From contig PNKH01000045.1 of NCBI GenBank assembly GCA_013822345.1, positions 1-55,089 on the forward strand: a stretch of DNA of 55,089 nucleotides. The letters run 5' to 3'. Below the pieces are notes generated by a model. The model searched no databases. It worked only from the letters and a program-made list of their open reading frames with translations, and was not told the DNA's origin. Position numbers and translations under genes: made by a program. This document shows positions 38,163 to 42,919 of the stretch, in pieces (the first letter of the stretch is position 1; every line of letters starts with the position of its first letter). The DNA comes from Isosphaera sp. Lineage in GTDB: Bacteria; Planctomycetota; Planctomycetia; Gemmatales; Gemmataceae.

Positions 38163-38194
38163 GGGTGGCCCCTGACCCTTTGGGCCGCCGCGTT

Positions 38195-41100
38195 ATGTCG
38201 AACCGCTTCTGCCACCTCCACCTCCACACCCACTACAGCCTGCTCGACGGGTTCAACCGCATCCCGGCCCTGGTCGAGCGGACGAAGGAGCTCGGGATGA
38301 CGGCGTGCGCCGTCACCGACCACGGGAACCTGTACGGGGCGGTCGAGTTCTACACCGAGTGCAAGAAGGCCGGCATCAACCCGGTGATCGGGTACGAGGC
38401 GTACGTCGCCGGGACGGACCGGCGGGAGCGGAAGAAGGACGACCTCGGCGAGGTGTACTACCACCTCACCCTGCTGGCGAAGAACACGACCGGGTTCAAG
38501 AACCTCATCAAGCTCTCCAGCATCGCGTTCCTGGAGGGGTTCTACTACAACCCGCGGATCGACCGGGGGGTGCTGGAGGCCCACAAGGACGGGTTGATCT
38601 GCCTGAGCGGGTGCCTGGCCGGGTCGTTCAACCAGCTCATCCTCCGCGACAAGGTGAAGGAGGCCCGGCAGCTCGCCGAGTGGTACGCCCGGGTGTTCGG
38701 GAAGGACTTCTACGTCGAGATCCAGAACAACGGGATCAAGGCCCAGGACGAGTGCACCCCCGTCGCGGCCGACATCGCGAACGCCCTCGGGGTGCCGCTG
38801 GTGGCGACCGCCGACGCCCACTACCTGTGCGCGTCCGACGCGGTCGCCCACGACATCCTGTTCTGCATCAACACCCAGCAGAAGCACGACCCGCGGCGGA
38901 AGAAGTACCCGGAAGAGCGGATGGCGAACCCGTACTACGTCCGCAGCCCGGACGACATGTACCGGCTGTTCCCGGGGCACGCCGACGCGGTCGCCCGCAG
39001 CGCCGAGATCGCCGACGCGGTCGACATCGAGATCGACTTCAAGAAGCGGCACTTCCCGGTGTTCCGCCCGCCGGAGGGGCGGACCCCGGAGGAGTTCCTG
39101 CGGGAGTTGTGCGAGCAGGGGGTGCGGGAGCGGTACGGCGAGAACCCGTCGGAGGCGGTGCGGAGGCGGCTCGACCACGAGCTGGGCATCATCACCAAGA
39201 TGGGCTTCGCGAGCTACTTCCTGATCGTCTGGGACTTCGTCCGGTTCGCCCGGGAGTCGGGCATCCCGTCCACCGCCCGCGGGTCCGGGTGCGGGGCGAT
39301 CGTCAGCTACGTGCTGTACCTGAGCCACGTCTGCCCGCTGGAGTACGACCTGCTGTTCGAGCGGTTCCTCGACCCGAACCGGAGCGAGGCCCCGGACATC
39401 GACATCGACTTCTGCCAGGACCGGCGGGAGCTGGTGATCGAGTACGTGAAGCGGAAGTACGGGGTCGAGTCGGTGGCCCAGATCGGGACGTTCGGGACGC
39501 TGGCGGCGAAGGCGGCGATGAAGGACGTCGGGCGGGTGCTGGACGTGCCGCTGGAGCGGGTGAACCAGATGTGCAAGCTGGTCCCGATGCACGGGGCGAT
39601 CGCCGGGGACCTGGACGAGGCGCTGGCCAGCCCGGACTTCCGGCGGGAGTACGACCAGGACCCGCAGGTCCGGCAGATGGTCGACGTCGCGCGGAAGCTG
39701 GAGGGGACGAACCGGAACGTCGGGACGCACGCCGCCGGGGTGGTGATCGCGAACGGCCCGATCACGGATTACGTGCCGGTGCAGCGGGTGGTGCGGAAGG
39801 CGGACGGGGACGGGTCGGAGAAGGGGTCGGTGGCGGTGACGACGCAGTGGGAGATGGGGGTGCTGGAGAAGGTCGGCCTCTTGAAGATGGACTTCCTGGG
39901 GCTGCGGAACCTGACGGTGCTGGACAACTGCGTGAAGCTGATCAAGCGGACGCGCGGGGAGGACGTGGACCCGGCGAAGTTCCCGCTGGACGACAAGGAG
40001 ACGTACGCGCTGCTGCAGCGCGGGGACGCGAAGGGGGTGTTCCAGTTGGAGTCGGAGGGGATCCGGGAGCTGCTGAAGCGGATGAAGCCGGACAACATCC
40101 GGGACCTGATCGCGGTGCTGGCGCTGTACCGGCCCGGGCCGCTCGAGGGCGGGATGGTGGACGAGTACGTGGAGTGCAAGCACGGCCGGCGGCGGCCGGC
40201 GTACCCGCACCCGGTGATGGAGGAGGTGCTGAGCGAAACGTACGGGGTGATGTGCATCCACGAGGACGCCCGGGTGGCGATGGCCGACGGGACCGAGAGG
40301 CCGATCCGGCACGTCCGCCGGGGCGATCGGGTCCACTCGCTGAACCTGGAGACGCGGGCGGTCGAGGCGAAGGAGTGCCACGGGTGCGGCCCGACCCGTC
40401 GCGAGGACGGCCTGCGGCTGACGCTGGAGAACGGGTTCGCGGTGACCTTGACCCGGGACCACAAGGTGTGGACGTGGGCCGGGTGGAAGGAGGTTCAGGA
40501 CCTCGACCCCGGGACGGACCTGGTGGCGTGCGGCCTCCGCACCCCGCAGGAATTGCCCGAGGTCGCCGGCCTCGCCCCGTGGCTCGGGTCGGACGAGGAC
40601 GTGGCCTACCTGCTCGGGCTGCTCACCGGCGACGGGTGCCTGACCAGTAGCGGCATCACCATCGCCACGGGGACGGCGGCCGCCCACGACCGGATCGTCG
40701 CGTGGCTCCGGGACCGGTTCCCCGGGTTGCAGGTGTCGCCGTACTTCCACCTGCGGTCGTGGTACGTCAACCTGTCGCACCCGGAGCTGCTGAACGACCC
40801 GAACCACGGCAACCGCAAGACGAAGCTTCACCACCTGCTCGACACCCACGGCCTGAAGAAGAAGGCCACCGCGAAGCGGGTGCCGGAGGCGATCTTCCGC
40901 TGCCCCGGCCCGGTGCGAGGGGCGTTCCTCGCCGGCATCCTCGACTCGGACGGGTGCCTCGCCACCAACTCGAACGGGGCGGGCGTCTCCTTCATCTCCT
41001 CGGCGTCCCCGGGACTGGTTCAAGACTTGCGCCGGCTCTGCCAGTTGATCGGCGCGGCAGTGAAGGTCTACCCCCAGCGCCTCCAGGTGTGGGGCCTCCG

Positions 41101-42919
41101 GCGCCTCCGCGAGGAGGTCGCGCCGCACCTCGTCGTCAAGACGTTCCCCGCCGAGTGCCCGGCGGGCGCGACCGTCGGGTGGGTGCCGCGGGACGAGCTG
41201 TTCGCCGCGATCCCCGCCGGGGAATCGCGCCGGGCCTTCGCCGCCCGGACGGGGATCGAGCGGCGGGGCATGTCCCACCGGTTCCCGTTCGCGAAGTCCT
41301 CGACCGCCGCCAAGGCCGGCATCCGCCTCGGCGACGTGCGGTACTTCCGGATCGCGTCGGTCGTGGTCGTCCCCGACCAGCAGTTCTACGGCATGTCGGT
41401 CGCCGGCCACCACAACCTGCTGGCCGACGGCGTGGTGGTGAAGAATTGTTACCAGGAACAGGTGATGCGCATCCTCAACCGCCTGGGTGGCATCGAGCTG
41501 TCTAAGGCGTACGCTTGCATCAAAGCCATCAGCAAGAAGAACAAGGAGTTGATCGCCACCCGGAAGGCGGACTTCCTCGCGGGCTGCGTCGAGCGGGGGA
41601 TGGCCGAGGAGAAGGCGGGGGAGATCTTCGGCCTGATCGAGTTGTTCGGGGGCTACGCCTTCAACAAGTCGCACACCGCGGCGTACGCCCAGATCGGGTA
41701 TCAGACGGCGTACCTCAAGGCCCACTACCCGGCCGAGTACATGGCCGCCATGCTCTCGTCCGAGATCGACGACGCGAACAAGCGGGACGTGATGGTCGAC
41801 CACATCGCCGACGCCAAGAAGCTCGGCATCGACGTCCTCCCCCCGGACGTCAACCGCGGGGCCGCCGACTTCGACGTCCACCACAACCGCATCACCTTCG
41901 GCCTCACCGCCATCAAGGGCCTCGGCCGCAACGCCGCCGAAGAAGTGGTCCGCGCCCGGACCGCCGCCGGCGGGCGGTTCAAGGACCTGTTCGACTTCTG
42001 CGAGCGGGTCGACCGGCGGGTGGTGCCGAAGGCCGCGGTCGAGCGGCTGGTCATGGCCGGGGCGTTCGACGCGTTCGGCCGCCGGGCCGCCCACTTCGCC
42101 GCCGTCGCCAAGGCGTACCAGGCGGCCGACGAGCGGGCCGCCGACCGCCGCCGCGGCCAGAAGAGCTTCCTCGACCTGTTCGAGGGGAACGGCGAGGACG
42201 GGGCCGACGGCCACGACCCCGGGCCGGAGCACGGCCTGCCGGACGTGCCCGAGTGGCCGGAGCGGGAGAAGCTCCGGTTCGAGAAGGAGGCCCTCGACTT
42301 CTTCATCTCCGGCCACCCGCTCGCCCAGCACGACGAGCAGCTGCGGCGGTTCCGCACCCACGACTGCGCCGACCTCGGCAGGAGCAAGCCCGGCACCGAG
42401 GCCCGCGTCGGCGGGATGATCGTCGAGCTGGTGGTCCGCACCGCGAACAAGGGGCGGAACACGGGGCGGAAGTACGCCACCTTCCGGATCGAAGACTTCA
42501 GCGGGGCGGTACGGTGCATCCTGTGGTCGGACGAGTACGCCCGGTACAAGGACCTGGTGGCGGCCGACGCGGTCCACCTGTTCGAGGGGACGCTGAACTG
42601 GCAGGAGGGCCGGGCCGAGCCGGACTTCCAGGTGAAGAAGGTGCTGACGGTCGAGGAGGCCCGGGCCGAGTTCACCAAGAGCCTGCTGATCAAGATGCCG
42701 TACGGCGACGACGAGGGGTGCCTGAAGAAGCTCGACGCGGTGGCCGTCGCCCTGCGGCGGTGCAAGGGGGCGTGCCCGGTGTACCTGAGCGTCCGGGACG
42801 CGGCCGGCCGGCAGGTGCAGCTGAAGCTGGGCGACGACTTCCGGGTGAACCCGGCCGCCCTGCCGGTCGAGGAGCTGGAGCTGGTGCTCGGCCGCGGGGC
42901 GGTGCTGTTCAGCCGGTAG
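38195..42919 (+). CDS. dnaE: DNA polymerase III alpha subunit containing an intein
   Basis: A 1574-residue precursor; removing the 398-residue intein leaves 1176 residues, normal for bacterial DnaE, the replicative polymerase. The PHP domain opens with HLHLHTHYSLLDG. The palm has PDIDIDF with Asp401 and Asp403, the same positions as in E. coli, and KMDFLGL with Asp566 as the third acid. The finger and thumb motifs (RNVGTHAAGVVI, GVFQLESEG, YGGYAFNKSH-like) are intact. A C-terminal OB fold lies near 1400-1490 (GGMIVELVVRTANKGRNTGR). The intein occupies residues 687-1084 between YGVM and CYQEQVM. The gene is complete on both sides and must be spliced to work. Confidence 0.96.
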   Translation: MSNRFCHLHLHTHYSLLDGFNRIPALVERTKELGMTACAVTDHGNLYGAVEFYTECKKAGINPVIGYEAYVAGTDRRERKKDDLGEVYYHLTLLAKNTTGFKNLIKLSSIAFLEGFYYNPRIDRGVLEAHKDGLICLSGCLAGSFNQLILRDKVKEARQLAEWYARVFGKDFYVEIQNNGIKAQDECTPVAADIANALGVPLVATADAHYLCASDAVAHDILFCINTQQKHDPRRKKYPEERMANPYYVRSPDDMYRLFPGHADAVARSAEIADAVDIEIDFKKRHFPVFRPPEGRTPEEFLRELCEQGVRERYGENPSEAVRRRLDHELGIITKMGFASYFLIVWDFVRFARESGIPSTARGSGCGAIVSYVLYLSHVCPLEYDLLFERFLDPNRSEAPDIDIDFCQDRRELVIEYVKRKYGVESVAQIGTFGTLAAKAAMKDVGRVLDVPLERVNQMCKLVPMHGAIAGDLDEALASPDFRREYDQDPQVRQMVDVARKLEGTNRNVGTHAAGVVIANGPITDYVPVQRVVRKADGDGSEKGSVAVTTQWEMGVLEKVGLLKMDFLGLRNLTVLDNCVKLIKRTRGEDVDPAKFPLDDKETYALLQRGDAKGVFQLESEGIRELLKRMKPDNIRDLIAVLALYRPGPLEGGMVDEYVECKHGRRRPAYPHPVMEEVLSETYGVMCIHEDARVAMADGTERPIRHVRRGDRVHSLNLETRAVEAKECHGCGPTRREDGLRLTLENGFAVTLTRDHKVWTWAGWKEVQDLDPGTDLVACGLRTPQELPEVAGLAPWLGSDEDVAYLLGLLTGDGCLTSSGITIATGTAAAHDRIVAWLRDRFPGLQVSPYFHLRSWYVNLSHPELLNDPNHGNRKTKLHHLLDTHGLKKKATAKRVPEAIFRCPGPVRGAFLAGILDSDGCLATNSNGAGVSFISSASPGLVQDLRRLCQLIGAAVKVYPQRLQVWGLRRLREEVAPHLVVKTFPAECPAGATVGWVPRDELFAAIPAGESRRAFAARTGIERRGMSHRFPFAKSSTAAKAGIRLGDVRYFRIASVVVVPDQQFYGMSVAGHHNLLADGVVVKNCYQEQVMRILNRLGGIELSKAYACIKAISKKNKELIATRKADFLAGCVERGMAEEKAGEIFGLIELFGGYAFNKSHTAAYAQIGYQTAYLKAHYPAEYMAAMLSSEIDDANKRDVMVDHIADAKKLGIDVLPPDVNRGAADFDVHHNRITFGLTAIKGLGRNAAEEVVRARTAAGGRFKDLFDFCERVDRRVVPKAAVERLVMAGAFDAFGRRAAHFAAVAKAYQAADERAADRRRGQKSFLDLFEGNGEDGADGHDPGPEHGLPDVPEWPEREKLRFEKEALDFFISGHPLAQHDEQLRRFRTHDCADLGRSKPGTEARVGGMIVELVVRTANKGRNTGRKYATFRIEDFSGAVRCILWSDEYARYKDLVAADAVHLFEGTLNWQEGRAEPDFQVKKVLTVEEARAEFTKSLLIKMPYGDDEGCLKKLDAVAVALRRCKGACPVYLSVRDAAGRQVQLKLGDDFRVNPAALPVEELELVLGRGAVLFSR
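40253..41446 (+). mobile_element. DnaE intein with LAGLIDADG homing endonuclease
   Basis: A 398-residue intein encoded in frame. Cys1 opens block A (CIHEDARVAMADG), block B has the T-x-x-H of TLTRDH (Thr67, His70), and the two endonuclease motifs are LLGLLTGDG (120-128) and FLAGILDSDG (225-234), with catalytic Asp127 and Asp233. Block F reads FYGMSVAGHHNLL and the C-terminus is VVVKN followed by extein Cys. The usual penultimate His is Lys397. All other splicing residues are present, so it may still splice. The site (YGVM/YQEQVM) differs from that of the cyanobacterial split DnaE intein (before CFNKSH). Confidence 0.93.
41444..41524 (+). other. dnaE: Codon-usage anomaly at the C-extein junction
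   Basis: From the last intein codon AAT through 81 bases of extein there are TGT, GAA, GGT, TCT, GCT and AAA codons, A/T-ending forms that are scarce elsewhere in this gene. It looks like flanking DNA brought in with the intein. Confidence 0.55.

Follow-up and report, generated by a model that had tools for sequence, protein, structure and literature searches.

A planctomycete DnaE intein with lysine for the penultimate histidine and glycine at block F position 4, and its same-site relatives in bacterial and viral contigs

How might an intein inside a replicative DNA polymerase splice when the histidine that usually precedes its C-terminal asparagine is replaced by lysine? The question is raised by the dnaE gene (DNA polymerase III alpha) of an Isosphaera sp. 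genome. The window, by which we mean the whole stretch of 55,089 nucleotides analysed here, is one contig of a 226-contig assembly with a genome completeness of 95.2%, and dnaE runs through it as a single open frame (38165-42919, + strand) interrupted in frame by a 398-residue intein. A first-pass annotation of this DNA had placed the intein at 40253-41446, and we confirmed it there by its length of 398 residues, Cys1, a TxxH motif, Asn398, Cys+1 and Pfam matches. The features of the locus are given below, where family members are the window intein and its four relatives at the same site.

38165..40252, + strand: DnaE N-extein, GTG start with an alternative ATG at 38195, last residues ETYGVM (open frame)
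40253..41446, + strand: class 1 intein with LAGLIDADG endonuclease domain, 398 aa (motifs, Pfam, predicted fold)
40253..40255, + strand: Cys1, first nucleophile, block A (invariant in 5/5 family members)
40451..40462, + strand: block B TRDH, T67...H70 (T67 and H70 invariant in 5/5)
40631..40633, + strand: Asp127, acidic residue of the first LAGLIDADG motif, LLGLLTGDG (kept in 4/4 endonuclease-bearing members)
40949..40951, + strand: Asp233, acidic residue of the second LAGLIDADG motif, LAGILDSDG (kept in 4/4 endonuclease-bearing members)
41390..41392, + strand: Gly380, block F position 4, usually Asp (invariant in 5/5; ungapped match to Mtu RecA intein variants)
41411..41413, + strand: His387, block F histidine at the Mtu RecA H429 position (invariant in 5/5; aligned to Mtu RecA)
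41441..41443, + strand: Lys397, penultimate residue, usually His (codon AAG; Lys in 3/3 bacterial and Ser in 2/2 viral-contig members)
41444..41446, + strand: Asn398, C-terminal, cyclising residue (invariant in 5/5)
41447..42919, + strand: DnaE C-extein, first residues Cys+1 and then YQEQVM

The insertion site reads YGVM/CYQEQVM. The intein opens with CIHEDARVAMADG and closes with FYGMSVAGHHNLLADGVVVKN ahead of CYQEQVM, so that its C-terminal end is GVVVKN followed by Cys+1. By alignment this Cys corresponds to residue 685 in the alpha chain of E. coli, the adjoining Tyr being residue 686 of 2hnh. The spliced DnaE, of which YGVMCYQEQVMR is a stretch, has 1176 residues when counted from the ATG at 38195, in agreement with the length predicted earlier, and 1186 when counted from the GTG at 38165.

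To which class the intein belongs is indicated by Cys1 (5/5), Asn398 with Cys+1 (5/5) and the block B TxxH (T67, H70), all of which are class 1 features. Two further features that are common in class 1 without defining it are absent, namely the penultimate His (0/5 members; Lys397 in the window intein) and the Asp at block F position 4, hereafter F:4 (Gly in 5/5). The first-pass annotation had credited the intein with all standard blocks; this holds for Cys1, block B and the block F His, but not for F:4, which is Gly380. Its LAGLIDADG endonuclease does appear intact, as had been proposed, with acidic D127 and D233 in the two motifs and PF14528 above its cut-off. The Pfam model Intein_splicing matched with E 9.4e-9 and 35.7 bits, just below the cut-off of 35.8; LAGLIDADG_3 (E 4.5e-8) and Hom_end (E 1.1e-4) were both above theirs, and Hint also matched. 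An AlphaFold2 model built from four sequences was of middling quality (mean pLDDT 72, pTM 0.49). Its splicing domain superposed on the Ssp DnaB intein (Z 21.3, rmsd 1.4, 138 residues), the Npu DnaB intein (Z 20.1, 138 residues) and the Mtu RecA intein (Z 19, 135 residues), and in a Foldseek search with the full-length model the best matches were VMA inteins with an endonuclease, at a TM of about 0.45.

Three other assignments were rejected. A class 2 intein requires that the N-terminal nucleophile be missing, and Cys1 is present; class 3 is marked by a Trp-Cys-Thr triplet whose Cys lies at F:4 and by the lack of a nucleophile at the first residue, and in these two places we found Gly and Cys, respectively; and a cyanobacterial split DnaE intein is incompatible with one open frame and the site YGVM/CYQEQVM. 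The insertion point thus differs, as had been noted, from that of the cyanobacterial split intein, .../CFNKSHS.

The replacement of the penultimate His is real at the level of the codons, which read AAG AAT TGT at 41441-41449 (Lys397, Asn398, Cys+1) and give the end VVVKN/C. A sequencing or assembly error might be suspected in a window that is a single contig among 226, but the step from AAG to a His codon takes two base changes, and the identical Lys recurs in two other planctomycete genomes (L005 and G050). Because of this recurrence Lys397 is not a base-calling error, and we give that reading, already refuted by the relatives, practically no weight. The outcome that the first-pass annotation had named as fatal to its proposal, His in all same-site homologues together with a base error here, failed, with His in 0/4 same-site relatives. 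On this comparison of sequences the variant is inherited within its lineage.

Those four relatives share the site consensus YG[VI][ML]/CYQEQ[VI]M with the window intein. A genome-contig scan gave a full-length relative in a Planctomycetaceae MAG (L005; about 52.5-53% identical, end IVVKN/C), and among the 95 family genomes searched, G050 has a mini-intein of 139 residues that lacks the endonuclease (53.7% identical, end IVVKN/C). The other two are full-length inteins in the DnaE genes of metagenomic viral contigs, L028 (about 43-43.9% identical, end IVVSN/C) and L029 (about 38-39.8% identical, end ILISN/C). The penultimate residue is therefore Lys in the three bacterial members, Ser in the two viral-contig members and His in none of the five. 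Since the G050 mini-intein has no endonuclease yet still lies in frame in dnaE, its splicing part has persisted in the absence of homing.

When the neighbouring ORFs of L028 and L029 were scanned, PHROGs labelled the interrupted ORFs themselves as DNA polymerase and found a single-strand-binding protein encoded beside the L029 DnaE. Both contigs are presumably phages, judging from their membership of the IMG/VR collection. The motif KAI[SG]KK is common to their DnaEs and to those from L005, G050 and the window, a hint that their hosts may be planctomycetes. In the third DnaE from a viral contig, that of L040, RRAMGKK stands in its place. In L029 (192-4983) the DnaE gene is in pieces: one ORF ends in an apparent intein N-half, a further ORF is possibly a free-standing endonuclease, and the next opens with an intein C-half before SHAAGM. 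This arrangement resembles the fractured-gene split inteins of phage metagenomes.

The second departure from the usual pattern lies in block F, which reads FYGMSVA..HNL in 5/5 members, with Gly at F:4 and the block F His kept. In an ungapped alignment to the Mtu RecA intein, Gly380 is the counterpart of residue 422, His387 that of the block F His at 429 and Lys397 that of the penultimate His (numbering of 422 and 429 as used in PMC9033041). The block F statistics given in PMC4031507 rank Asp first, Cys second and Trp third at F:4, with mostly His at F:13.

Is Gly at F:4 simply usual for inteins of this genus? Other intein ends in the window's genus (n=26) served as control and showed penultimate His in 25/26 and F:4 Asp in 25/26, figures to be read knowing that many of these ends are mutual alleles and that a search with PF14890 is biased towards canonical ends, the window intein not being retrieved by it. 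That search covered 19 genomes of the genus and gave 50 rows; we read those 25 that had both a locus and a match at the C-terminal end. Of these, L091 stops short, and in the remaining 24 the penultimate residue is always His, F:4 being Asn in a single end and Asp in the other 23. Eight further rows extend to the C-terminal end but carry no locus and lie outside the control count. The genome to which the window belongs supplied the other two control ends, L002 with Asp and His and L004 with Asp and Ser. This genome (G000) holds several more inteins, on contigs C80, C12, C62 and C41, the last being that of L004. A second set, loci sampled by similarity to the window intein, gave 11 distinct other ends (L002, L003 and L004 among them) with Asp in 11/11 and His in 10/11. 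The text pattern used to locate them overlooks ends that are spaced unusually, such as that of the second L029 intein, and three of its matches, in L009, L012 and L040, were discarded as shifted or due to chance.

The viral-contig DnaE L040 is interrupted at exactly this site by an unrelated intein, only 23% identical to that of the window, whose end YDITV...LIVHN has both Asp and His. Therefore it is the lineage, and not the site, that carries the change. L004, where Ser occurs with the F:4 Asp kept, shows also that absence of the His need not entail absence of the Asp. On the minus strand of L040 (3378-9309) we observed, in addition, that an ORF lying upstream contains, at GRG/CFVAGS, what resembles the beginning of another intein.

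What could the joint absence mean for splicing? In the relevant passages of PMC9033041, Asp422 is hypothesised to hold back C-terminal cleavage until the exteins are joined, and the D422G exchange to lift this restraint; similarly, the gp41-1 exchange D107G increases C-cleavage (as described in part of PMC12245125). PMC5050341, where it treats this point, indicates that the block F His is able to substitute for the penultimate His, and it describes mycobacteriophage inteins whose penultimate residue is Gly, Lys or Ser, in one of which a Gly-to-His exchange slowed splicing. Against this background we consider it likely that the window intein belongs to a mobile, splicing-competent class 1 lineage, carried by scattered planctomycetes and by presumed phages, and that in this lineage the disappearance of the Asp brake makes up for that of the penultimate His. 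Splicing would follow the usual four steps, namely an N-S shift at Cys1, transfer to Cys+1, cyclisation of Asn398 and an S-N shift. In those class 1 inteins that have been studied for it, the F:4 Asp slows Asn cyclisation and the penultimate His promotes it; here this brake and this accelerator would have been lost together. Because both are gone, cyclisation would rely on the block F His387 as the helper that is left, and release from the Asp brake may compensate for the absent penultimate His. Lys397 probably has no catalytic part and is simply tolerated, given that Ser takes its place in the viral-contig members. The endonuclease, predicted to be active, probably drives homing into alleles of the DnaE site. 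A point against this explanation is that Asp-to-Gly exchange in engineered inteins favours C-terminal cleavage, which would be harmful to DnaE unless other residues restore coordination.

The weakest step of this explanation is the coupling of Asp and His, which to judge from the alignments rests on one lineage. Since the five sequences form one family, F:4 Gly with a non-His residue is effectively one evolutionary event, and it could be a founder effect of a single lineage and not a functional coupling. In line with this, the element might be an ordinary class 1 intein whose penultimate residue has drifted, the block F Gly being unrelated, Lys or Ser neutral, and splicing like that of cyanobacterial DnaE inteins. 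In such inteins Ser or Ala takes the place of the penultimate His (PMC5874633), in mycobacteriophage inteins the position is filled by Gly, Lys or Ser (PMC5050341), and L004 in the same genome has Ser with Asp kept. However, drift does not readily account for Gly at F:4 being fixed with the His loss in 5/5 members when Asp and His each stand in 25/26 other ends of the genus, nor for the Asp and His of the unrelated L040 intein at the same site. We regard drift as a serious alternative, though a less probable one than compensation.

A search of the window's own genome for a second, inteinless DnaE with the N-extein as query gave one match only (E<=0.001, genome 95.2% complete), and because only one DnaE was found, the polymerase probably needs splicing, as had been claimed for this essential enzyme. 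Identity between the window intein and its full-length relatives is also higher in the splicing blocks than in the endonuclease plus linker: 62% against 47% for L005, 57% against 37% for L028 and 53% against 32% for L029. The absence of two usual catalytic residues might instead point to a decaying or slow intein that splices poorly and is maintained by its endonuclease alone. The sole DnaE, the excess conservation of the splicing blocks and the persistence of the block residues in the endonuclease-free G050 mini-intein all speak against decay, which we consider unlikely. Block conservation and an endonuclease-free mini-intein kept in frame fit active splicing, as far as sequences can indicate it; splicing itself is what we infer from them.

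Regulation, by which the absence of His and Asp would tie splicing to pH, redox or temperature and make DnaE maturation conditional, is suggested by analogy with an engineered Mtu RecA mini-intein that has Gly at F:4 and cleaves more than 20x faster at pH 6 than at pH 8 (relevant passages of PMC9033041). There is Cys at both junctions, and in one published case the penultimate residue modulates the build-up of precursor (described in part of PMC5050341). Conditional loss of the only DnaE found would nevertheless be costly, and we think regulation of this kind quite improbable.

How widely has the lineage spread? With the family alignment at E<=1e-20, 3/102 genomes of the order matched, namely the window's own, G050 and G042. 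The G042 match covers residues 1-276 only (E 1.4e-21) and ends differently, in LLSHN/S, and was excluded from the family. Samples of the phylum (392 genomes, with at most four candidates scored per genome) gave no further family member: besides the own genome, two matched at E<=1e-12 with the protein and four at E<=1e-15 with the alignment, over residues 1-274 at most. The pattern for the occupied site was found in 1/334 phylum genomes (the window itself) and in 2/95 family genomes (the window and G050). Scans of viral contigs found L028 and L029, and repeats returned the same two contigs plus L040 of the other lineage. A plasmid search gave no family member, and when 50,697 phage records were searched by tblastn with the window intein, only the terminase of Caulobacter phage CcrPW matched (two records; 25% of the query, 33% identity). 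Other phyla were covered by the single genome-contig scan.

For L005 (52.5% against 45-50%), L028 (43.9% against 36-37%) and L029 (39.8% against 35-37%) the intein is more similar than its flanking DnaE, which is what lateral spread would produce. The comparison with G050 runs in the opposite direction, with 53.7% for the intein and 77% and 68% for the flanks. It could reflect vertical descent with faster change in the mini-intein, and this closest relative, on its sequence, counts against lateral spread.

Where the site is uninterrupted, its +1 residue may bear on past occupation. In the family, 37/95 genomes matched the empty-site pattern, with Val in 27, Cys in 7, Thr in 2 and Ile in 1; the other 58 gave no match because the pattern is exact. 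Outside the family, 145 places in 141/372 phylum genomes had Val (84), Leu (51), Ile (5), Ala (4) or Met (1), and Cys in none. In these samples, inteinless Cys (L032-L038, in G004, G021, G023, G040, G049, G060 and G093) is confined to the intein-hosting family. In a DnaE tree of 36 rows, 4/40 having been dropped as short (G007, G035, G090 and G050), the Cys genomes fall on several branches and the nearest neighbour of the window, G022, has Val. A clustering test counted 2 changes against a shuffled mean of 1.9, with no separation from shuffled labels. Scars of lost inteins are thus a possible explanation of the inteinless Cys, and repeated drift or pre-adapted sites are also candidates.

The fullest version of the proposal would be a natural lineage that has lost the F:4 Asp and the His as a matched pair, splices efficiently on the block F His alone, moves between planctomycetes and phages through the DnaE site and leaves inteinless Cys as scars; taken as a whole we hold it to be tentative and rather doubtful. 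Non-His penultimate residues, Lys and Ser included, are already published, and Lys397 alone is not new. In the open-licence literature we found no paper that treats the window intein or the combination of Gly at F:4 with Lys before the final Asn, nor a description of F:4 Gly with missing His in a planctomycete and viral DnaE homing lineage that includes a mini-intein. InBase reportedly lists a Gemmata DnaE intein. The locus is of interest since engineered F:4 Asp-to-Gly gains C-terminal cleavage, yet Gly is naturally fixed in five polymerase-gene inteins. If these five splice, they would represent a second way of timing Asn cyclisation and could serve directly as a template for intein tools, with the 139-residue G050 mini-intein as a small scaffold, and viral-contig and bacterial alleles at one conserved site make phage-borne intein transfer testable.

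Compared with known systems, the L040 intein (IMGVR 3300037295_000333; 370 residues) shares the DnaE site, but with its low identity and canonical Asp and His it is a separate lineage. A second DnaE intein site, FNK/SHTAAYAQ, has canonical ends (Asp, His) in six genomes of the genus (L092-L096 and L104; G009, G011, G014, G017, G025 and G026) and is also represented by L023 in G035. Cyanobacterial DnaE inteins are split and have no endonuclease. The Ssp and Npu split inteins resemble the window intein in host protein, in Ser or Ala for the penultimate His (PMC5874633) and in fold (Z 16), whereas they keep the block F Asp (Asp118 in Npu) and occupy another site. Mycobacteriophage class 1 inteins, in the passages of PMC5050341 that describe them, are alike in their non-His penultimate residues, Lys included, and in the phage link; the one tested, the RDF intein with penultimate Gly, spliced completely. 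They differ in host genes (terminase, RDF and others), and the likeness concerns the penultimate residue. Finally, the Mtu RecA intein is likewise class 1, with the same splicing fold and ungapped blocks F and G. Its chain 2in8 has Gly at the D422 position, like the window intein, whereas 3ifj has Asp, and the delta-I-CM form is D422G. The natural Mtu RecA intein, however, has Asp422 and the penultimate His and is hosted by recA, whereas the window intein carries Gly and Lys naturally, in dnaE.
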